A stretch of DNA of 64,000 nt from Marinomonas vulgaris (GTDB lineage Bacteria; Pseudomonadota; Gammaproteobacteria; Pseudomonadales; Marinomonadaceae), in the NCBI RefSeq assembly GCF_018145875.1, contig NZ_JAGSSV010000002.1:1-64000 (forward strand). The letters are read 5' to 3'. This document shows, piece by piece, positions 27,992-41,362 of this stretch. The notes beneath the pieces are model-generated. The model did no database searches, had not been told where the DNA came from, and saw only the letters and a list, made by a program, of their open reading frames with translations. Made by a program: the position numbers and the translations under genes. Position 1 is the first letter of the stretch. Each line of letters opens with the position of its first letter.

Positions 27992-30900
27992 ATGAAAAAT
28001 GCACTTTTGTCTAAAAAGTTACACGAAGATATTGCCTCTACACAAGGAGTTCGTCCTTTTTGGATTTACATTCAAGCGGTTATTTACTTAGTTGGTTTTA
28101 TCGCTGTTTTTCTAATTAATATTTTATTTGATGATATTAACGAGCAGCTAAATAAAGACATTGTAAATGAGAAAACACGTTTAAGTATTGGTGAGTTAAT
28201 TGTTTTTGATTTGAAGAAAATAGAATCTTCTTTTTATCAGATTGCGACAACGTCAAACGTCAGAGGTCAGAATTACATTCGAAGGCAGTTGCAAACCAGC
28301 CTAGATGATCTAAACGAAATTTTAGAAGTACTTGAAAATGGCGGTACCATAAAGCGTGATACGCGCTTAAATATCGAAAGCCAAGAATTGATGAGACGTA
28401 ATTTTACCTATACTCGTCAGGTAGGGGATGATAAATACATTTTAGAAGTGATTGATCTGAAACCCAAACTGCTTGAAATCGAAAAAGAAAGCGATCATTT
28501 GTTGGCATTGCTCGCTGAGCGAGAAGCATTAAGAGAAGCTGGTAATGTGGATGACTATTCAGCGTCTATTGATAAGGTGAAAATCTACTTAATAACCTTG
28601 CCTCAGTTGTTTGTTCGAGCCATGGAGAACGCGAATGTACTTTTTTATCAAAGCCAAAAAGAAGTTGATAAATTAGAGAAAAATGTCGAAGAAAAACGAG
28701 CTGATTACAATACACTGCAAATCTGGTTGTCTATTTTTATTGTTGGTATTGTGTTCTTGATTAGCTTTCGAATCCTACGTCAGTTACAAACCTCTCAATA
28801 TCGCCTACAAGAATTAGCGAAAAATCTAGAATTTCAAAAGTTTGCTTTGGATCAGCACGCCATTGTATCAGCCACCGACATAGACGGCGCGATTGTGTAC
28901 GCCAATGATAAGTTTTGCGAAATAACAGGTTACAGTCGCAGTGAGTTATTGGGTAAGAATCACTCTATTTTCAAGTCTGGAGAGCATCCCGATTCTTATT
29001 ATAAAGAGTTATGGGATACGGTAGCGGCCAGTAAAGTATGGCGAGGAGAGCTCAAGAACCGTAATAAAGATGGCACTTTTAGCTGGCTTTCGGCGACGAT
29101 TGTGCCTTTGCTAGACCATGCAGGTAAGCCTTTTCAATATTTTGCTATTCGAACCGATGTGACCTCTCGCAAAGAGATGGAAGGTACGATTCAAGAGAAC
29201 AATCGTTTTCTTCAGAACTTAACAAATACTATGGGAGAAGGTGTTTACGCGGTAAACAAGGACGGTAATTGCATTTATATTAATCCTAAAGCACTGGAGC
29301 TGGTGGAATATCAAGCTGAAGACGTCTTTGGTCAAAACATGCACGATCTTATTCATCAACACGACAAAGAAGGGCAATTCGTTTTTGGTGATCATTGTCC
29401 TATCGTAAAAAGCATGCGTGAACATAAACAATATGTTTCAGAAGATGAGTGGTTCCATACAAAATCGGGCAGAGGCTTTCCTGTCTCAGTAACCGCCGTG
29501 CCCATTATAAACGATGGTAAATTTGACGGCTATGTGGCTGTATTTCAGGATATTTCTTTGCGCAAGGAAATTGAAGAAGACCTTCAAGATGCCAAAATAC
29601 AAGCAGAAGAGGCCAACCGTTCCAAAAGTCATTTCTTGGCAAACATGAGTCATGAGATCAGAACACCAATGAATGCCATCATTGGTATGTCGTATTTGGC
29701 TTTGCAGTCAAACCTCAACGATAAACAGCGTAATTATGTCGATAAAATTAACCGCTCGGCAGAATCTTTGTTAAGAATCATTAACGACATTCTGGATTTG
29801 TCCAAAGTGGAAGCCGGTAAATTGGAATTGGAAAAATCTGAGTTTTTCATCTATGAGTTGTTTACCGACTTAGCCAGCGTGACCAGTATTAAAGCGGAAG
29901 AAAAAGGTTTGGAGTTGCTGTTTGATATCGACAGTCAGATTCCAAATTGGTTGATTGGTGATCCGACACGTTTGAATCAAGTGCTATTAAACCTTTGTAA
30001 TAATGCGATTAAGTTCACCGAAAAGGGTGAAATTATCGTGTCTGTGCAGGTGGTTTCTTCTTCAGACAATGCAGTTGAGTTGAAATTTTCCATTAAGGAC
30101 ACTGGTATTGGCGTGACGGAAGAGCAAAAGCAAAGCCTGTTTATGCCATTCCAACAAGCCGATGTGTCTACGACACGTAAATTTGGTGGCACAGGGCTGG
30201 GTCTTTCAATCAGCAAGCGCTTAGTGGCCCTGATGAAAGGTAAAATCTGGATGGACAGCGAGATCCACGTAGGTAGTACTTTTCACTTCACCGCATGTTT
30301 TGATATTTGTAAGAAAAAACCGGTGTGGTCTTGTGACTTCGATGAACTTCGAAATTTATCCGGTTCACGAGTATTGGTGGTTGATGATAACGAGAATGCA
30401 CGTGAGATCTTCACCTCGATGCTGTCGAATTATAATTTAGCAGCCGATACGTTGAAAAACGGTACGGAGCTGCTCGAGCTTATCAATCACAGCGATAAAA
30501 TTAAACAGTACGATGTGGTGTTATTAGATTGGCAATTGCCAGATAAAAATGGCGTTGAACTTCTAGATGACATTGCCGCTGATAAGTATGATCAACTACC
30601 GCCAATAGTGATGATGACGGCGTACGGTAATGCTGAGCTTGATAGAGCGCTCAAAGAAGCGAACCACCAAGTATTCCAAATATTAACCAAGCCAATTACC
30701 CCGTGTGCTTTGCTAATCAGTATGCGCTTGGCGCTAGGCATGAGTATCGAAGGTTTGTCTGGATCACAAAAGAAAGGCAATGAAAGTGAGCTGGAACCCC
30801 ATCATCTTGAAGGCAAGAAAGCGTTGTTGGTAGAAGATAACGCCTTTAACCAAGAAGTCGCGTCTGAGTTGTTGTCTAGTTACGGAATAGAAGTGACCAT

Positions 30901-31810
30901 TGCCGAGAATGGTCTAGAAGCGTTGCAAAAAATAACGACCAAAGACTTCGATTGCGTGCTGATGGACTGTCAAATGCCAATCATGGATGGATACACTGCC
31001 ACGAAAAAAATACGTGAGCAGGACATCTACAAGGACTTGCCCATTATTGCCATGACCGCCAACGCCATGCACGATGAAGTGGCTCATATGATGGAATGTG
31101 GTATGAATGACCATATTCCTAAACCCATTGACGTAAAGCTTATGCTCGCAACACTTAGTAAGTGGATCATTCAAAAACCGGCTACTGTGCAGGTTTTTAC
31201 TGCGTCCACTCAGTTTGCTAATAATTTGGTACTAGACAGTCAAAAAGCCTTGTCTCGTATGGGAATAGGGCAAGAAAGCTACAATAAATTGCTGGTGAAG
31301 TTCATTGAGCATGAAGGTAATGGTATAGAGGACATCAATCAAGCGTTGGAAAATCAGGACAGTGCTACCGCAACACGGTTATTTCATACCTTAAAGGGCA
31401 TTGCGGCAACGATTGGCGCTGAACCTCTTGCCAATGTGGCGAAACGTTGTGAAGTAGCAATGGGGTCAGGATCACTAGAGTCAGCGTTAAAAGACGAGCT
31501 CGAACATGAATTAGCCATGGCGATAGAAGCCATCCAACATGAGATTTCTTCTTTTGATGAGGTTCGAAAAGAAGATAACACTACAGGTGATATTGTTACT
31601 TTGTCTGAGGAAGAGCTTGAGAGTAAGTTGGCTATATTGGAATCTTTACTTGAAGAGTTCGATAGCGACGCAGAAGATGTGTTGGAAGACATCCTTAACG
31701 CTTCTTTTGATTCGGTCACAAAAGGAAAGTTAGAAGACATTGCAAAAGCATTGGGTCAATACGATTTTGAAAAAGCACTCAGCGTATTAAAAGGAATAAA
31801 ACATGCCTAA
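27992..31810 (+). CDS. Hybrid sensor histidine kinase, PAS-PAS-HisKA-HATPase-REC-REC-HPt
   Basis: Membrane sensor kinase of 1272 residues. Membrane helices at about 24-46 and 243-263 bracket a helical periplasmic domain. Then come PAS (about 279-397), PAS (403-525), HisKA with H554 (MSHEIRTPMNAI), HATPase, REC1 with D846 (LLDWQLPD), REC2 with D992 (MDCQMPIMDG) and an HPt domain with H1132 (FHTLKGIAATIGA). All phosphorelay residues are present. The REC-HD-GYP gene overlaps its 3' end by 8 nt and is the obvious output. The preceding binding lipoprotein may present the signal. Confidence 0.93.
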   Translation: MKNALLSKKLHEDIASTQGVRPFWIYIQAVIYLVGFIAVFLINILFDDINEQLNKDIVNEKTRLSIGELIVFDLKKIESSFYQIATTSNVRGQNYIRRQLQTSLDDLNEILEVLENGGTIKRDTRLNIESQELMRRNFTYTRQVGDDKYILEVIDLKPKLLEIEKESDHLLALLAEREALREAGNVDDYSASIDKVKIYLITLPQLFVRAMENANVLFYQSQKEVDKLEKNVEEKRADYNTLQIWLSIFIVGIVFLISFRILRQLQTSQYRLQELAKNLEFQKFALDQHAIVSATDIDGAIVYANDKFCEITGYSRSELLGKNHSIFKSGEHPDSYYKELWDTVAASKVWRGELKNRNKDGTFSWLSATIVPLLDHAGKPFQYFAIRTDVTSRKEMEGTIQENNRFLQNLTNTMGEGVYAVNKDGNCIYINPKALELVEYQAEDVFGQNMHDLIHQHDKEGQFVFGDHCPIVKSMREHKQYVSEDEWFHTKSGRGFPVSVTAVPIINDGKFDGYVAVFQDISLRKEIEEDLQDAKIQAEEANRSKSHFLANMSHEIRTPMNAIIGMSYLALQSNLNDKQRNYVDKINRSAESLLRIINDILDLSKVEAGKLELEKSEFFIYELFTDLASVTSIKAEEKGLELLFDIDSQIPNWLIGDPTRLNQVLLNLCNNAIKFTEKGEIIVSVQVVSSSDNAVELKFSIKDTGIGVTEEQKQSLFMPFQQADVSTTRKFGGTGLGLSISKRLVALMKGKIWMDSEIHVGSTFHFTACFDICKKKPVWSCDFDELRNLSGSRVLVVDDNENAREIFTSMLSNYNLAADTLKNGTELLELINHSDKIKQYDVVLLDWQLPDKNGVELLDDIAADKYDQLPPIVMMTAYGNAELDRALKEANHQVFQILTKPITPCALLISMRLALGMSIEGLSGSQKKGNESELEPHHLEGKKALLVEDNAFNQEVASELLSSYGIEVTIAENGLEALQKITTKDFDCVLMDCQMPIMDGYTATKKIREQDIYKDLPIIAMTANAMHDEVAHMMECGMNDHIPKPIDVKLMLATLSKWIIQKPATVQVFTASTQFANNLVLDSQKALSRMGIGQESYNKLLVKFIEHEGNGIEDINQALENQDSATATRLFHTLKGIAATIGAEPLANVAKRCEVAMGSGSLESALKDELEHELAMAIEAIQHEISSFDEVRKEDNTTGDIVTLSEEELESKLAILESLLEEFDSDAEDVLEDILNASFDSVTKGKLEDIAKALGQYDFEKALSVLKGIKHA

Positions 31811-32864
31811 TAAAGCGGACATTACCCCAGCAAAACAAAGTGTATTAATTGTTGACGATACGCCTGAAAATATTGACGTGTTAAGAGGTGTGTTAGCCGG
31901 TGAGTATCAAATTCGTGCTGCCACTAACGGTATGACAGCGCTGAAAATCGCTGAAAGCAAACAGCCCGATATCATTTTATTAGACATAATGATGCCAGAA
32001 ATGGATGGTTATGAAGTTTGTCGACGACTGAAATCCAACCCAAAAACCGTCAAAATCCCAGTGATTTTTGTCACCGCTATGGCAGAAGCAGAGGACGAAG
32101 AATTTGGTTTGAACCTTGGCGTCGTCGATTACATCACCAAACCGATCAAGGCATCCATAACGCGCGCACGGGTGAGAAACCACCTAGCAATGCAGGATCA
32201 AAGATTGGCTTGTGAACAAGAAGTAATGAGCCGTACCAAGGAGCTGGAAGAATCAAATCGTGCGGCGATCTTTATGTTAGGTGATGCCGGTCACTATAAC
32301 GATACCGATACGGGGGTCCATATTTGGCGGATGGCGGCGTATGCGGCGGCGTTAGCGCGTAAAGCTAATTGGCATGTTGACGATGCCGCCTTGCTTGAAT
32401 TGGCTGCTCCCATGCATGACACAGGTAAAATTGGTATTTCTGATGCGGTACTCAAAGCACCCAGAAAATTGACCAAAGAAGAGTGGGAAATAATGAAAAC
32501 CCACAGCACAATCGGTTATCAAATATTGAGCAAAAGTCACTCGCCAGTGTTTACATTGGCAGCAGAGATAGCGCTAAACCATCACGAACGTTGGGATGGA
32601 ACGGGTTACCCAAATGGAATCAGCCAAACGGCCATCCCTGAATCTGCTCGTATTGTTGCCATCGCCGATGTATTCGATGCGCTTACCATGAAGCGACCTT
32701 ACAAAGAAGAATGGCCAATACAAAAAGCCATCGACACTATTATTGAAGGCTCCGGCACTCACTTTGATCCAAATCTAGTGACGGCTTTTATAGAGATAAA
32801 AGAAGAAATTATTGCTATTAAAGATAAATGGGATCGTAAAAGCGAAGATACGGATCGTCTTTAA
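31803..32864 (+). CDS. Response regulator with HD-GYP domain (predicted c-di-GMP phosphodiesterase)
   Basis: Protein of 353 residues. An N-terminal receiver has phospho-acceptor D61 (LLDIMMPEMDG) and lysine in YITKP. The HD-GYP domain carries H205-D206 in MHDTGKIG and HHERWDGTGYP from 260. These are the metal and GYP residues of active family members, so hydrolysis of c-di-GMP is likely. AAGGA precedes the ATG, which overlaps the kinase gene by 8 nt. It is most likely phosphorylated through the HPt of that kinase. Confidence 0.93.
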   Translation: MPNKADITPAKQSVLIVDDTPENIDVLRGVLAGEYQIRAATNGMTALKIAESKQPDIILLDIMMPEMDGYEVCRRLKSNPKTVKIPVIFVTAMAEAEDEEFGLNLGVVDYITKPIKASITRARVRNHLAMQDQRLACEQEVMSRTKELEESNRAAIFMLGDAGHYNDTDTGVHIWRMAAYAAALARKANWHVDDAALLELAAPMHDTGKIGISDAVLKAPRKLTKEEWEIMKTHSTIGYQILSKSHSPVFTLAAEIALNHHERWDGTGYPNGISQTAIPESARIVAIADVFDALTMKRPYKEEWPIQKAIDTIIEGSGTHFDPNLVTAFIEIKEEIIAIKDKWDRKSEDTDRL

Positions 32865-33124
32865 ATGTTAGTAAAAACTTTTATCTCGAAAAGAAATAGG
32901 TTATCAGCAGAATGATCTAGACCTAACAAGCGTCACTTTCAAGCATTTCGATCATTCTTCTCTTGTTTTCAATCATAATGTAGCCTTACGTTACCGCTTC
33001 ATATCGTTTCGTTACAAACCAATCATGCCAATTCTGCTGATTATCCTCTACCATCTAATCAAGAGGATAATTTTGTACTAATTTTCTACACATTTAATGT
33101 TGCAGATGAGGCATAAACACGCGG

Positions 33125-34486
33125 ATGAATAATAAAAGATTAGAGCAGTTTGGTGGTTGGTTATGGCTTGTTGTATTGTTGCTGGGTAGCCTGATTACTT
33201 TGTGTGTTGCTTTGTTTGCTTATTTTCAAGATGAACACAAGGTGCAGGTTTACAGCAGCACTTTGGCGGATAGAACAGAAACCCTAATTGAAGAACGTTT
33301 TCAACAGTTTGAATATGGATTACGAGCCACTCGCGGTGCCATTGTTGCGGCGGGAGTCGATGATATTACACGGCAACAATTTGAGCGTTACAGTAACAGT
33401 CGTGATATTGAAGGCGCCTTTCCCGGTGCATTGGGATTTGGTTTTATTCGCCGTGTTCCTGTAGATCAAGAAGCCAGTTTTGTGGCGCGTATTCGTAAAG
33501 ATGGTGTGCCTGATTTTACCGTTCGTGCCTTAGCGGAGCACGATCAAGATCGATTTATCATTCAGTATATTTACCCATTTGTTAAAAATAGCCAAGCTCT
33601 CGGGTTAGACGTAGGGTCTGAGGCCAACCGACGATTGGCCGCTATGTCTGCAGCGAGAGAAGACAAAACCTATCTCACTCAACCTATCACCCTGGTTCAA
33701 GCAAATAAAAAAGCTCGAAAAGGGGCTTTGATACTTTATCCAATTTACACCGATGGTAAGGTACTAAATACCAGTGAGGAACGAGAAGACGCCTTAGTAG
33801 GCTGGGCATATGCGCCTTTAGTGATCGATGATGTGCTGGCTAATCTTGGAGAACTGACGGATCAAGCAGCCATTAGCTTAACCAACACAAAAGAAGGTGA
33901 GCCGTTTTACCGAGCTCATGATAGAGAGCTGTTGGCTTTAGATGACGAGAAAAAAGTTGTTCGTTCTATTTTTATATTGGGTCAGCAATGGGAGCTTGAG
34001 CTGATTCCTACTCTTCAGTCAACGGAGCGTATACGATTTTGGGATGTCGGCTGGGTGGTGGCGATAGGCTTGTTGTTGACGCTTTTTGCTATGTTGGCGG
34101 TAAATCTTCTGCGAACCAGTCGTTCGATAAAAGAACAAGAGATAGATATCCACCAAGTGGGCATTAAGAGTGTTATGACATTCTTCACCAGTACTAGGTT
34201 CAATCGCTCCTGGCCGTATACAGTATTGATTTTACTGGTGGTACTCTTCATCGCGACCTGGCTTATTTTACAAAGTAATTTGAAGCGAGTAAGCAACGAG
34301 CTGTCAGTAATAAAAGAAACAACGATTGAAAATATCAGCCAAGAAGCCGCGCAATATCGCCGTGATACTTTATTTCTAGCCAACACATCGCCTATCTTGA
34401 GAATTGAGACTCAAGTGGACAAAAGTATGCAGTCGATTAATCGAGACCAGGTTTACAACGAGTGGAGCGAAGGAAACTACGATTAA
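33125..34486 (+). pseudogene. CHASE-domain hybrid kinase, N-terminal part, cut by IS
   Basis: First part of a kinase gene interrupted by an IS. Native codons run to 34471 (449 codons); the last five (GNYD and stop) are IS sequence. It encodes a membrane helix (10-34), a CHASE-type periplasmic sensor (about 70-230), two further helices (about 305-328 and 361-382) and the beginning of a second periplasmic domain (NTSPILRIETQVDKSMQSIN). That domain continues in the fragment after the IS. Joining 34471 to 35644 restores one open frame (tgg agc gaa | cga att gct) of 1605 codons. No kinase domain is on this fragment, so alone it cannot signal. Confidence 0.9.
34468..34471. repeat. Target site duplication, left copy
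   Basis: CGAA directly before the IS left end at 34472; the same four bases follow the right end. A 4-bp duplication is usual for IS5-group elements. Confidence 0.88.
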
Positions 34487-34559
34487 GAAGTTGCAAAACA
34501 CTCAACTTCTCTTTTCCAAATAAAAAAGCACAGGATTCCACCTGTTTTGATGCTTTTCA

Positions 34560-34600
34560 CCACTAAACAAGCTTATTTAGCCTTGTTTAGTGGATTTTTA
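34560..34600 (+). terminator. Plus-strand terminator inside the IS
   Basis: CCACTAAACAAG (34560-34571) pairs perfectly with CTTGTTTAGTGG (34582-34593), followed on the plus strand by ATTTTTAA. It would stop transcripts entering the IS from the interrupted kinase gene. A second hairpin just before it (AAAAGCA at 34524 with TGCTTTT at 34551) adds to the block. Confidence 0.7.
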
Positions 34601-34605
34601 ACGGA

Positions 34606-35580
34606 TTAACCCCTTGCCGCCCGTATCATCTGGTCAACTCTAAACACATTAGATAAGGCAAACAGCATCGCCAGTTTGTTATCATTTTTCTCTAAGCCGC
34701 GATAGACGACTTTCCTAAAACCAAACTGACGCTTTATGATCCGAAACGGGTGCTCTACTTTTGCTCGGATACTGGCTTTGAGGTATTCTGTTCGGATTGG
34801 TTGCTTGTTGATTCTCGGGTGTCTCTTGAGAAGACGCACCTTACTTGGCATTTCTGCAATCAGCCAATCCGCCTCGATGTCTTTTAATTCCTCTCGTTTT
34901 TGTGCACCTCGATAACCTGAATCCGCCGAGATAAAGCGTTCCTCACCATGAAGCAGGTTTTCTGTCTCTGTGATGTCATGTACGTTGGCGGCTGTTGTAC
35001 TTAAACTGTGCGTCAGGCCTGTTCTCGCGTCTACACCAATATGAGCTTTTAAACCGAAAAACCACTGCTTACCTTTTTGAGTCTGGTGCATTTCGGGATC
35101 GCGTGCTTTCGCTTTGTTCTTGGTTGAACTGGCCGCTTCAATAATGGTGGCGTCGACAATTGTGCCTTCTTTTAGATAAATCCCAGCGCTAGACAACCAC
35201 TTATTGACCTCTTTGAACAGCTGACGGGAGAGCTTATACTTTTCCAGTAAGTGCCTAAAATTCATGATGGTTGTGTGGTCCGGGATAGCACTGTCCAGCG
35301 ACAATCCAGCAAACAAACGCATGGACGTGATTTCATAAAGCGCGTCTTCCATAGCAGGGTCGCTCATGTTGTACCAATGCTGCATACAGTGAATGCGAAA
35401 CATGGTGGATAACGGATACGGTCTTCTTCCTTTTCCTGCTTTGGGGTAAAAAGGCTCAATAACGGCTTCAAGCTGATTCCACGGCATCAGCACATCCATT
35501 CGAGCCAAGAAAATCTCTTTACGTGTTTTACGACGTTTGTTGTTGAATTCGCTGTCGGCAAAAGTGAGTTGATGTGACAT
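34606..35580 (-). CDS. IS5-family transposase (DDE)
   Basis: Full-length transposase of 324 residues (E. coli IS5 InsH is 326). The DDE triad can be placed at TIVDATII (D), [10 protein letters not shown] (D) and the C-terminal stretch [14 protein letters not shown] (E). The N-terminal part is rich in basic residues for end binding. The frame is uninterrupted, so the element may still be active. Confidence 0.95.
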
Positions 35581-35601
35581 GGTCAGGCTCGAAGGTTAAA
35601 A

Positions 35602-38600
35602 ATGAATTGTCTCATGCACGGGACTTATTCGCATCTTCCCGAACGAATTGCTGATGTTTTTAAGGCATATATGCTGTCTGTACCCGATGTACACCAAGTT
35701 CGCTTTATCGAAGCCAGTAATGGTTGGCAAGAGCGAGTTAAGGTACAGCGCCAAGGGAATGATCTTAATGTCATTGCTCGTGCAGCTTTGCAATCAAAAG
35801 AAAACGAGCCTTATATCAATGCCACGCTTGATGTAGGTGAAGGTAAGGTGTACGAATCCGACATTAATCTGAATCGGGAGTTTGGTAAAATCGAGCAACC
35901 AGGTCGCCCTGTTTGGCGTTTTTCTACGCCGCTTTTTTATGAAGACGGCAGTCCGTTTGGTATTGTCATTGTAAATGTCAGTGCCGATCGATTACTGACA
36001 TTGTCTTCGGACAAGACTGTCGATCGAGCTAATTTGTATATCACCAATAAAGAGGGGGACTTTTTGCATCACCCCAACTCTTCTAGAACATTTACTTTTG
36101 AATATGGTTATTCAAATCGCTGGCAAGATGAGTTCCAACTTACGTCAGCTTGGATGATGTTAGAGCATTACGATTTAGATCGTTTTATTGGCCAAACGGG
36201 TGATGTGATCGTCAGCCAAGGGCAATTCTGGCTGGATGATAACAAAGAAGACAGAGCTCTTTCGGTTTATATATCAACACCATTAATAGCTTTAACTAAT
36301 ATTGTTCTCTTTCAGTCGATTGGCATATTAGCAGTACTTTTGTTATTTGGTGTCATCATTATTTCGATTCAATATCGAGTGTGGCTGTCTGAGAAAATCC
36401 GTCAGCGCGATGAATGGAATTTACAAATAGAAGCACAGCGTAGTAAAGAAACTGTGCGTTTTAAGGCGCTATTGGAGTCGGCGCCAGATGCGACCTTTGT
36501 AATAGATGATGCCGGTATTATTCAGCTGATAAACGCTCAAGCGGAACAAATGTTTGGTTATGAGCGTGTTCACTTAGAGCAAAATCCGATTCAAAAATTA
36601 ATCCCGCAATATTTTTATCATGTTAGTGGGTTAATCGATAATGCGACGGATGTTACTCATCATGCAGTATTAATTGGCACTCAAGAAGAGGTTTTTGCCT
36701 TACGTGCTGATGGCAAAGAGTTCCCAGTAGAGATGAATGTTAATACTGTCAACTTGGACGATAAAATACAAATGTCCGTGTCGATTCGAGACATTAGTGA
36801 ACGCCTCATTACTGAGGAAAAACTGCGTAAAGCACTAAGAGATGCCGAAATGGCGACAGAAGCCAAAAGTGCTTTTTTAGCCAATACGAGTCACGAAATA
36901 CGCACGCCGTTAAACGCCATCATAGGTTTGGGGTATTTGTTAGCCGAAGAGAACCTTACAACGGCACAGCTGCAATTGGTCAGCAAAATCCAAATTTCGG
37001 GCAAGTCCTTACTTGGCATTGTTAACAACGTTTTGGATTTGTCGAAGATAGAAGCTAATGAAATGGAGTTGGAAGAGCAAGCGGTTGAATTACGAGAGCT
37101 CTTTGAAGAAGTGACCAGTGTGTTTGCCATTCAAGCGGAAGGGAAAAACCTAGAGTTCGAATTGGAAATGGCACCGAACTTACCCGTTTGGGTAGTGACC
37201 GACAGCGTGCGTTTGCGTCAAATTCTGACCAACTTACTCAGTAATGCACTTAAATTTACCAGCATAGGTAAAGTGTCGGTCAGGGCGAGTGTGTTATTGG
37301 ATTCTGCTAAAACGGATAAGACAAGTGCAGAAAATGTAGTGGTTCGTTTACTGGTCAGTGATACGGGGATTGGTTTATCAAAAGAAGCACAATCGCGATT
37401 ATTTAAGCCTTTTACTCAAGCTGATTCGAGCACCACTAGACGCTTCGGTGGAACCGGTTTAGGTTTGTCTATTGTGCATCAGTTAGTCAATCTTATGTCT
37501 GGTACTATAAAAGTAGAAAGCGCCGAAAGCGTAGGCAGTCAGTTCTGCATTGACCTACCTTTTCATGTGCAAACTATGGCCGAAGTTGCGCAACATGAAA
37601 ATCAAAATCAAATGTTGTTTGTGCTCATTGCAGAAGATAACCCAACCGACGCGCGTTTATTACAACAAATGACACGAGCGCTTGGTTGGCGCTCTGAAGT
37701 AGTTAGTAATGGTGCTGAGCTGGTAAAAACTTTCTTGGCTCGAATCGACAACCATCTGCGCTCACCTGACGCTATCATTGTTGATTGGCAAATGCCGATA
37801 ATGGACGGTATGAATGCGATTCACACACTAGAAAGCCACATTGGGCGCGATAAGCTTCCTGCGGTTCTGATGGTGTCTTCCCACGACAAAGAAAGCATCA
37901 CCGGTGGCAACGAAGAAGATCTGGTGAATAATTTCTTAATGAAACCCGTCAATGCTTCTGCTTTATTTAATGCGGTGAATGATGTGGTGACATTTAACAC
38001 TGGCAACGCCAGCCGCGTTTTGCAGTCTACTAACGCTGAAGCCGTGGGAGCGAAATGGTTACCCGGTATTCGAGTCTTAGTGGTGGACGATAGCTCAAAT
38101 AACCTGATTGTTGTCAGTCATATTCTGGAACACAATGGCGCTATTGTTCAAACCTCAAACAGTGGTGAAGGAGCCTTGGCGCTATTAAAAGAATCTCCTG
38201 ATGGGTACGATGCTGTCTTAATGGATGTGCAAATGCCCGGTATTGACGGACTCGAAACCACGCGACGTATTCGTAATGTACTGGGGTTAGTGGCGCTTCC
38301 TGTGATCGCCTTAACCGCTGGAGCTCTGTTAGAAGAAAAGAATCGCGCATTGGAAGCGGGTATGGATGACTTTTTAACCAAGCCGATTGATGTTTCCAGA
38401 TTGATCAATGTGCTGCGCCGTGTTGTAGAAAATTTCCGCGGTAAAGAGATCCCCATTGAGCCTGCCGATGCACCTTTAGTGGAACAAGACGACTGGCCAT
38501 CGATTATGGGGCTCAATTCGACAAAGTCAAAAAGCATTCTTATGAGTGATAAAGACTTGTTTTTGAATACGCTGAATACCTTATTTTTAGAGCATGGCAA

Positions 38601-39114
38601 TTTATTAACGTCGCCACAAGAAGACATTGATGCAGCTGCTTTCATCGACTTACGTTTGCAGTTAGCGGCGCAAGTTCATAAGCTTAGAAGTGTGTCGGGC
38701 ATGGTGGGTGCGGAAGAAATTCAGCAGCTAGCTGCCGAGGCAGAACGTATTTTACGAACCGATGATGAGTCAGCTAAGGATGTAATGATTGCTCTGTCTT
38801 TAGCGCTGCAAGAGCTTTATCAGGCAAGTGCACAGACATTAGAAGACTTCAAGCAAGATAAGCGAAATATCAATATGTTCGCGGCAAACGAGCCTGTGCA
38901 AAGCATTGATCAGGCGATGATTGAGCGTCTGTTACTGCTTTTAGAAGAGCAGGATTTGGATGCCTTAGAAGCCGTAGAGGAACACAGCGCCGCTTTACAG
39001 CAGGCGTTAGGCGAAGATACATTCCAGACTTTTCAAGGGCTTTTAATGCGCCTGCAATACAAGGAAGCGATTGTGATGCTAGAACCTCTAATAAACTCTA
39101 TTAAAAATGCATAG
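35602..39114 (+). pseudogene. Hybrid sensor kinase, C-terminal part, detached by IS
   Basis: Second part of the interrupted gene; native codons begin at 35640. The open frame starts with an ATG supplied by the IS end (35602), preceded by GAAGG. It encodes the rest of a periplasmic sensor, a membrane helix (about 227-256 of this fragment), PAS (from about 288), HisKA with H431 (TSHEIRTPLNAI), HATPase, REC1 with D728, REC2 with D875 (MDVQMPGIDG) and an HPt with H1026 (VHKLRSVSGMVGA). The catalytic parts are complete, so it could keep ligand-independent activity if it is transcribed. Confidence 0.88.
35640..35643. repeat. Target site duplication, right copy
   Basis: CGAA immediately after the IS right end at 35639, matching 34468-34471. 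Confidence 0.88.
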
Positions 39115-40069
39115 TGGTAAAAAGATGAGAATAGACAATGAATTGGCTGATATTTTAATCATTGATGACGACACCGCCGTGATAGTAGCGCTGAATAAGG
39201 CGTTAAAAAACGTCGGCCGTATTCGTTTTGCCACGGATGCAAAACAAGCCTTCAATATGATAGAAGAATCGTACCCAGACCTGATTCTACTTGATGTGGA
39301 ATTGCCAGATGTTCGCGGATTAGAAGTCTGTACCATGTTGAAAAACAACCCGGAAACAGAAAATATACCGATTTTGTTCATCACCAGTCATACAGAAATG
39401 GGCTTTGAAGAGAAGGTGTTTGACGTGGGGGCGGCGGATTACATTGGTAAGCCTTTGCAACCAAGGGTCGTTGCAGCACGAGTACAAACGCACCTTGATT
39501 ATCATCGCGCTATTTCTTTGCTTGAGAAACTGGCGCATACCGATAGCATGACCACTCTCTATAATCGTCGAACTTTTGACGAGCAGTTAATTATAGAGTC
39601 CAAACGTGCTCGACGTGAACAAGAACCACTGACAGTGGTGATTTTAGACATTGATGAGTTTAAAAAATACAATGATCACTTTGGTCATATTGAAGGGGAT
39701 GAATGTATTAAGCAGATTGCCTTGTCTTTGATTGAGTGCGCGAAAAGACCGTCCGACTTAGCGGCTCGATATGGTGGGGAAGAGTTTGCCTTACTCTTAC
39801 CAAATACCGACAATGTAGGGGCCAAGCTTTTATTGACTGGTTTGCTGGAAAGTATTCAAGCATTGAATATTCAGCATGCTCCAGACACAGTTCACGATAG
39901 GGTGACGGTTTCCATTGGGTACAAAGTACTAGATCCTGTCACTGAAACCATGGTTAGCTCAGACGATTGGTTAATTGTTAAAGAAGCAGATAAGGCCTTG
40001 TATCAATCTAAACGCAATGGTCGTAACCGTATAACGGCTTTTACTGATCTTAACGAGGAAAACTCTTAG
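39107..40069 (+). CDS. Response regulator diguanylate cyclase (REC-GGDEF)
   Basis: Predicted c-di-GMP synthase of 320 residues. The receiver has D63 (LLDVELPD) and YIGKP. The GGDEF domain has an intact active site GGEEF (223-227) and an inhibitory RxxD motif (R214-D217) at the usual distance, so product feedback is expected. The start overlaps the kinase gene by 8 nt; an in-frame ATG at 39125 is an alternative and neither has a strong ribosome site. Its partner kinase is the IS-interrupted one, and the terminator inside the IS should reduce its transcription. Confidence 0.92.
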   Translation: MHSGKKMRIDNELADILIIDDDTAVIVALNKALKNVGRIRFATDAKQAFNMIEESYPDLILLDVELPDVRGLEVCTMLKNNPETENIPILFITSHTEMGFEEKVFDVGAADYIGKPLQPRVVAARVQTHLDYHRAISLLEKLAHTDSMTTLYNRRTFDEQLIIESKRARREQEPLTVVILDIDEFKKYNDHFGHIEGDECIKQIALSLIECAKRPSDLAARYGGEEFALLLPNTDNVGAKLLLTGLLESIQALNIQHAPDTVHDRVTVSIGYKVLDPVTETMVSSDDWLIVKEADKALYQSKRNGRNRITAFTDLNEENS

Positions 40070-40195
40070 CCGCTATTTTATTTATGCAGTTCACATTATC
40101 AAAACAGCACAGGTGATTAAAAAGCACAAGTTTGTTTCTTATGAATAAACTTGTGCTTTTTGCTATCAGTTCAACTACTCGGCTAAAGTTTATTG

Positions 40196-41362
40196 TTAGG
40201 CTAAAGGGCCGCCTAGAATGGTTGTTCGTAAGCCTGCGATGATGTTTTCACCGGTTTCTTTTTTTAGCTCATCGTACCAAGCCTCAGTTTCTGCCATATC
40301 TTTGCCGTGGGTTACATCGCAGCGTTTACGCGCTTTGAGTACCAAATCTTTGACGCGAAAGCGTCGTTCGGCTTCATACTCTTTTAGCGCAGCGGTCACC
40401 CCCGACAAGGTGTACTCGTGATGGGCAAAACACTGGCCTAATACCACGGCATCTTCTAGCGCAGAACAGCCGCCTTGGCCAATGTCGGGAGTGGTGCTGT
40501 GAGCCGCATCCCCCAACAAAGCAATTTTGTCTTTAACCAAGGTGTCAAAAGGCTCGATGTCATGGATTTCGATGCGGTTTGTTGTTTCAGGATTAATGGC
40601 TTTAATAAGCGTTTGGACTGGCGCTGCCCAGCCTGAAAAGTAATCTGTGAGGTCATCGATTAAGGTGCTTCGATCTTCTTTCAGGCCTTTTGGCAATGGC
40701 ACGTCGAAGAAGAAGTAAAAGCGACCTTCAGCGATCGGCATAATAGAAACACGCTTCCCTTCGCCCACAAACGTGGTCCATTGGTCGCCAGGGGCGATGT
40801 CCTCGTCAATATCAACCAGACCATTCCAGTTTACATAATCCGCGTAGCGGCGCTCCGTGTGATAACCAAGAACTTGAGTACGAACCGCGGAGTGGGTGCC
40901 ATCGGCGGCAATCATAAAGTCGCCGCTGGCCTGAGTGCCGTCATCAAAAAAAGCGGTTACGCCATTGTCTGTCTGCTCAACGCGTTCAATACGTTTACCA
41001 AACTGAATGAGGTCACGCCCCCACCAGTCGATCATTTGGCTTTGCAAATCGGCACGCGATACCGGGCAAGGGCGCTCACCCACAGCGTCTACTAGTGGTG
41101 CCAAGCTAAATTGCGTCATCACCGATCCTGTTATGCCATCATGGTAAGCCATGTTGTGCATAGGGCCACCAAGCGCGTCCATAATGCTGCCCATGCCAAG
41201 GTGATTCATGCATTTCACACCATTTGACCAAATAGACAACGCCGCGCCTACTGGCCGGATTTCCTTTACTGCTTCAAAAATATCACACTCAATACCTTGC
41301 TGCTTTAACGCAGCAGCTGCAGACATACCACCAATACCAGCGCCAATTATTAATGCTTTCAT
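40196..41362 (-). CDS. hpxO: FAD-dependent urate hydroxylase
   Basis: Flavin monooxygenase oxidising urate to 5-hydroxyisourate with NAD(P)H and O2, 388 residues. FAD motifs are GAGIGG (7-12), the middle ADGTHSAVR and GDAAHSTTPDIGQGG. The overall sequence fits HpxO rather than salicylate-type hydroxylases, and the neighbours (HIU hydrolase, OHCU decarboxylase, xdh) support this. ATG 41362 follows AGAGGAAATCGA; the frame from 41383 lacks such a site. A near-perfect sigma-54 promoter lies about 90 bp upstream. Confidence 0.93.
   Translation of the reverse strand: MKALIIGAGIGGMSAAAALKQQGIECDIFEAVKEIRPVGAALSIWSNGVKCMNHLGMGSIMDALGGPMHNMAYHDGITGSVMTQFSLAPLVDAVGERPCPVSRADLQSQMIDWWGRDLIQFGKRIERVEQTDNGVTAFFDDGTQASGDFMIAADGTHSAVRTQVLGYHTERRYADYVNWNGLVDIDEDIAPGDQWTTFVGEGKRVSIMPIAEGRFYFFFDVPLPKGLKEDRSTLIDDLTDYFSGWAAPVQTLIKAINPETTNRIEIHDIEPFDTLVKDKIALLGDAAHSTTPDIGQGGCSALEDAVVLGQCFAHHEYTLSGVTAALKEYEAERRFRVKDLVLKARKRCDVTHGKDMAETEAWYDELKKETGENIIAGLRTTILGGPLA

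Follow-up and report, generated by a model that had tools for sequence, protein, structure and literature searches.

The 64,000-nucleotide stretch of Marinomonas vulgaris DNA analysed here (contig NZ_JAGSSV010000002.1, positions 1 to 64,000, hereafter the window) carries a complete IS5-family insertion sequence (IS) which has very probably transposed into what was one gene coding for a hybrid histidine kinase, likely with the loss of the kinase and probably recently. The features concerned are the following, the element and both copies of its target having been read directly from the sequence:

33125-34471, + strand: the 5′ part of the hybrid kinase gene, 449 codons, coding for a CHASE domain (aa 79-255), three hydrophobic stretches and the start of a second periplasmic region.
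34468-34471, + strand: CGAA, the left copy of the 4-bp target duplication.
34472-35639, no strand assigned: the complete IS5-family element, 1168 bp, with imperfect terminal inverted repeats.
34606-35580, − strand: the IS5-family transposase, 324 aa, uninterrupted, with DUF772 and DDE_Tnp_1 (Pfam).
35640-35643, + strand: CGAA, the right copy of the 4-bp target duplication.
35644-39114, + strand: the 3′ part of the hybrid kinase gene, 1156 codons and the stop, coding in this order for the rest of the second sensor, a hydrophobic stretch, PAS, HisKA (HEIRTP), HATPase, two receiver (REC) domains and Hpt.

The two parts add up to 449 + 1156 = 1605 codons in one frame, as the initial annotation of this stretch had calculated, and its proposal that they represent a single split CHASE-type hybrid kinase agrees with the orthologues found in a search covering 48 genomes of the genus, namely the window's own, which is the only one of this species, and 47 others. 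At E ≤ 1e-80, matches were obtained in 4/48 genomes, the window's own included. The N-terminal piece finds three strong orthologues, in genomes G002 (57-58% identity), G017 (54%) and G018 (52%), and the C-terminal piece finds the same loci, with identities of 72-73%, 62% and 59%, respectively. The frame is continuous through the insertion point in all three, the open frames being 1617, 1604 and 1384 codons long; from its ATG, the G002 orthologue is 1608 aa and the G017 orthologue 1597 aa in length, and that of G018 is open through the second receiver, across the insertion point. Alignment of the joined protein to these intact homologues, which had been suggested as a check, runs through the join in each of them: EWSE|RIADVFKAYM in the window corresponds to EWNE|RVADIFKAYM in G002, QSDK|RLTDIFKAYM in G017 and LWNE|RLADIFKAYM in G018. 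The 40 columns just past the join are gap-free in the three orthologues, with 29, 28 and 33 identical residues in G002, G017 and G018, respectively; ahead of the join, G002 shows a 6-residue insertion and a 2-residue deletion relative to the window. Judging from this alignment, no residues are missing at the join and both pieces are one frame. Neither a homologue naturally split into two proteins at this point, which the initial annotation had named as the finding that would speak against it, nor a second genome carrying the insertion was found among the 48 genomes searched.

The CHASE, HisKA, HATPase, REC and Hpt domains all score above their Pfam cut-offs and are divided over the two pieces, with CHASE (E 7.2e-48) in the N-terminal one and a PF21623 sensor match, PAS, HisKA, HATPase, two receivers and Hpt in the C-terminal one, and the same domains lie on a single protein in G002 and G017, as well as in G018 without Hpt. 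The sensor had been described as continuous across the join, which the orthologue alignment supports, although no domain match spans the join. PF21623 starts at residue 453 in G002, 446 in G017 and 449 in G018, the first residue after the join being 454, 449 and 449; since the match starts at the junction or 1-3 residues earlier, it is the alignment on which the continuity of the sensor rests. The dCache_1 profile stays below its cut-off (45) in all three orthologues, with 31.4, 30.1 and 21.0 bits, and a profile of the sensor region finds just two weak PDB chains, 2p7j and 3lid (E 0.03), in matches that begin 7 positions past the join and about 79 residues into the chains. We take both chains to be dCache-type sensors, and from this placement we infer that the element probably interrupts a dCache-like sensor, close to where the N-terminal segment of that sensor ends.

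The coordinates given in the initial annotation for the element and its CGAA flanks were found to be correct, and the assignment to the IS5 family holds on account of the transposase score against NCBIfam NF033581 (353.3 bits, cut-off 140), the inverted repeats and the 4-bp duplication. The left end reads GGAAACTACGATTAAG and the right end, as its reverse complement, GGAAGATGCGAATAAG, the two being identical at 12/16 positions. With the IS5 group of the IS5 family the element shares the single DDE transposase, the GGAA...CGA.TAAG ends, the 4-bp duplication and the length of 1168 bp. Ends resembling these two are present in most related IS copies according to a terminal-repeat scan, in which the copy at 34472-35639 scores 16/16 by construction as the pattern was built from its own ends. 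For IS5 of E. coli, the target consensus is given as CA/TAG/A in the available part of one paper (PMC11677980) and as Py-T-A-Pu in that of another (PMC5493358); the element described here sits at CGAA instead.

In the split state, two open reading frames (ORFs) result, the upstream one at 33125-34486 (453 aa) and the downstream one at 35602-39114 (1170 aa), the latter starting with an ATG inside the element. The parts that the insertion adds to them are:

34472-34486, + strand: four element-derived codons and a stop, ending the upstream ORF, as seen in the sequence.
35602-35643, + strand: 14 codons, made of the element end and CGAA, which give the downstream ORF an in-frame ATG with a ribosome site of the ordinary range.

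The complete IS5-family element has thus transposed into the gene for a membrane-bound hybrid kinase, duplicating the 4-bp target. As seen in the sequence, a stop codon of the element ends the upstream ORF past CHASE, some 60 residues into the second periplasmic region, and the kinase, receiver and Hpt parts are left in a separate ORF startable only inside the element or further in. A signal-responsive kinase would be lost in this way, its partners being probably the adjacent HD-GYP and REC-GGDEF regulators described below, together with a periplasmic input to the control of cyclic di-GMP (c-di-GMP).

Several points weigh against this interpretation. The species is represented by one genome only in the comparison, the date of the insertion is bounded only from above, and the target CGAA fits neither YTAR nor C(A/T)A(G/A), which are usual but not family-defining. 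The loss of a working sensor kinase, though the favoured and most likely effect, is deduced from the sequence, and the ATG at 35602 has a predicted anti-Shine-Dalgarno pairing of −4.1 kcal/mol, at least as strong as that of 14 of the 32 ORF starts in the window. The last point would fit the possibility, which we regard as unlikely, that translation from the element ATG or from an internal start still yields the downstream half as a sensor-less kinase, so that signalling is altered and not abolished. This ATG is in frame and opens the 1170-aa ORF with GAAGG 6 nt ahead of it, and this ORF contains the kinase, receiver and Hpt domains in full; however, 18.5% of 600 random ATGs from the window pair equally well or better, and the fragment would probably have the wrong topology because the hydrophobic stretches preceding its periplasmic part are absent. 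Promoter-like sites are not enriched either, with two found in 34400-35800 against 2.0 expected, and an IS-borne promoter was accordingly rejected as being at chance level.

With regard to the age of the insertion, the earlier remark that neither half shows decay is borne out, as the 1605 codons (4815 bp) contain no stop, frameshift or other disabling change. From the missing nonsense changes, the neutral divergence of both halves is bounded at 1.5% (95%), assuming neutrality since the insertion and transitions twice as likely, and the bound falls to 0.4% if indels are assumed to arise at 0.1 per substitution. The N half taken by itself gives bounds of 4.9% and 1.5%, respectively. Counting only sites where two outgroups agree, there are 21 changes in the N half and 24 in the C half on the window branch and 40 and 28 on the G002 branch. 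Since the N half shows no acceleration on the window branch, there is no sign of relaxed selection. The lack of decay suggests that the insertion is probably recent. The word "recent" used in the initial annotation is thus supported by the two open halves and by the steady N half, but what they provide is an upper bound, and the copy itself lies outside the multi-copy group of related elements in this genome.

This group became apparent at the ends of contigs. The genome consists of 56 contigs, and the survey covered 40 listed ends, one of them a 1-base placeholder, with the right ends of the IS being followed. At least 13 contig ends share an identical 73-77-nt IS right end which is one base off the copy at 34472-35639, and a 14th is shortened, indicating a collapsed multi-copy IS5-family element. 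Positions 1-77 of the window, which coincide with the start of the contig, are the right end of a related IS and are among these ends. The element in the kinase gene is not one of the collapsed copies, which speaks against a simple recent-burst story: the nearest full copies found, in G013 and G025, differ from it at 38/1168 positions, and an IS copy of G002 differs at 69. The G025 copy is identical to that of G013 over 1168 bp.

As the copy differs from all the others compared and so falls outside the latest burst, the insertion could be an old one whose flanking halves have stayed open by chance or because they retain some function. We nevertheless consider this improbable given the absence of any disabling change over 4815 bp and the tight divergence bounds, and the difference between this copy and its neighbours could simply mean that it was acquired from elsewhere.

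To return to the target of the element, 16 distinct long copies were compared, copies with fewer than 900 aligned bases or without the right end being dropped and rows repeating one copy (L001, L021 and L090; L002; L003) being counted once. A matching 4-bp duplication flanks 7/16 of them and no matching one the other nine. The seven duplications are TTAG twice (G013 and G025, probably one insertion because the flanking bases are the same), CTAA twice, CTAG, AGAG and CGAA. Five of the seven fit YTAR, and the two misfits, CGAA and AGAG, both belong to this genome, where AGAG/AGAG, the second off-consensus duplication, flanks a related IS (L054, G000:C24:23519-24605). Of the right flanks at the 13 listed contig ends, nine conform to YTAR and four (TAAG, CAAA, TTTG and CTTG) to YWWR, whereas CGAA conforms to neither pattern. 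A literature search pairing the IS5 family with YTAR found no paper. The off-consensus CGAA is a curiosity and no evidence for a different mechanism.

The genes neighbouring the kinase are:

27992-31810, + strand: a hybrid histidine kinase of 1272 aa, syntenic in G002.
31803-32864, + strand: a response regulator with HD-GYP-type motifs (HDTGKIG and HHERWDGTGYP), syntenic in G002.
39107-40069, + strand: a REC-GGDEF response regulator (TIGR00254, 156.4 bits, cut-off 37.4) with a GGEEF motif.

The HD-GYP/RpfG label for the second of these is our assumption; its best NCBIfam match, a family of c-di-GMP phosphodiesterase regulators, is below the cut-off. The ATG of the REC-GGDEF gene lies just inside the 3′ end of the kinase gene, the two genes sharing 8 bp. 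The gene order in G002 is identical, namely hybrid kinase, HD-GYP, CHASE kinase and REC-GGDEF, with identities of 76%, 83% and 78% for the first, second and last of them, and the REC-GGDEF gene is also next to the kinase in G017 and next to a kinase remnant in G044. Judging from this synteny, the kinase is likely to pass phosphoryl groups on to c-di-GMP enzymes in a phosphorelay. No Rfam match above the gathering scores was found at 31000-41000.

In a comparison of the N half with PDB, 6K62 is the sole sequence at E ≤ 0.01 (aa 55-271, E 1.2e-51). It is the CHASE structure of PcrK from Xanthomonas campestris, according to the text available of PMC7804937, and PcrK, a cytokinin sensor, is described in the accessible part of PMC7072313 as sensing isopentenyladenine and as acting on the regulator PcrR, which has phosphodiesterase activity. 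The kinase described here has a homologous CHASE domain and a regulator of the HD-GYP phosphodiesterase type encoded nearby, but differs from PcrK in having a second sensor after CHASE, as well as fused receivers and Hpt. If its CHASE domain senses a plant- or alga-type cytokinin, the locus offers a natural comparison of carriers and non-carriers among marine bacteria.

The initial annotation had also stressed that removal of the element restores the frame exactly. The frame is indeed restored, but any precise excision at a target duplication has this outcome automatically, so that it carries no special weight and leaves the functional reversion proposed in the same annotation a hypothesis. 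We think it very unlikely that the element works as a reversible on/off switch and leaves the gene precisely in some of the cells, which would thereby regain the kinase. The transposase is intact, the duplication perfect and the flanks undamaged, and IS-mediated reversible inactivation has precedents: precise IS5 excision at E. coli fucAO-fucPIK and the Pseudomonas atlantica case, as far as the available part of PMC5493358 goes, likewise concern an IS-altered gene with a restorable site. On the other hand, nothing site-specific was found, no second carrier of the insertion is among the 48 genomes, and precise IS5 excision is reported just "in one case" in what is available of PMC11677980. The more specific idea that the off-consensus insertion is a reversible switch, by which part of the population uncouples a PcrK-like kinase that may sense plant or algal signals from its c-di-GMP regulators, is just as hard to credit.

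An assembly artefact is highly improbable. The genome is indeed a draft of 56 contigs, with breaks at the ends of related IS, but a chimaera is unlikely to give matching CGAA at both ends and to join the two parts of one gene; moreover, this copy differs from the others and sits in the interior of a 317-kb contig. Two naturally separate genes with an IS between them can practically be dismissed. Such an arrangement might be suggested by the separate ORFs of the two halves in the sequence as it stands, and by G044, which has only a receiver-receiver-Hpt end next to the REC-GGDEF gene. It is refuted, however, by the three continuous orthologues among the 48 genomes; the G044 remnant starts at about residue 605 of the downstream half and not at the junction, and has three TGA stops, which the open frame puts at the start of the remnant; and the IS lies within a periplasmic region, flanked by a target duplication.

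The transposition of the element into a single kinase gene is, as a disruption by insertion, ordinary in kind. For annotation, it means that what look like two genes are a single kinase gene that has been disrupted, and that the strain is probably without this sensor. Orthologues covering both pieces occur in 3/47 other genomes, one of them without the Hpt end, and a fourth genome has a remnant only. The kinase is probably dispensable in the genus because three of the five loci found, the window included, are damaged or reduced. In G018, the frame ends after the second receiver (L053 13766-14081); past the stop, there are short matches to the Hpt region only, of which at least one is out of frame, and the 19-kb G018 stretch gave no match to GGDEF. 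The G044 remnant (L094 7061-9701) has 53% identity to the C-terminal piece and adjoins a REC-GGDEF gene with 67% identity, constituting the output end without the kinase.

A scan of wider relatives with the orthologue alignment gave distant kinases from many phyla with 30-42% identity as its best 80 of 566 matches, and the scan with the N half gave no confirmed match. In a literature search combining Marinomonas, insertion sequence and histidine kinase, no paper on this gene was found by title. Finally, contig C24 of this genome begins within an IS that shows no difference from the G025 copy over 335 bp (L011 1-395; L071 1440-2668; L072), and a 60-bp flank is likewise identical in C24 and G025, which points to a mobile region shared in the recent past.

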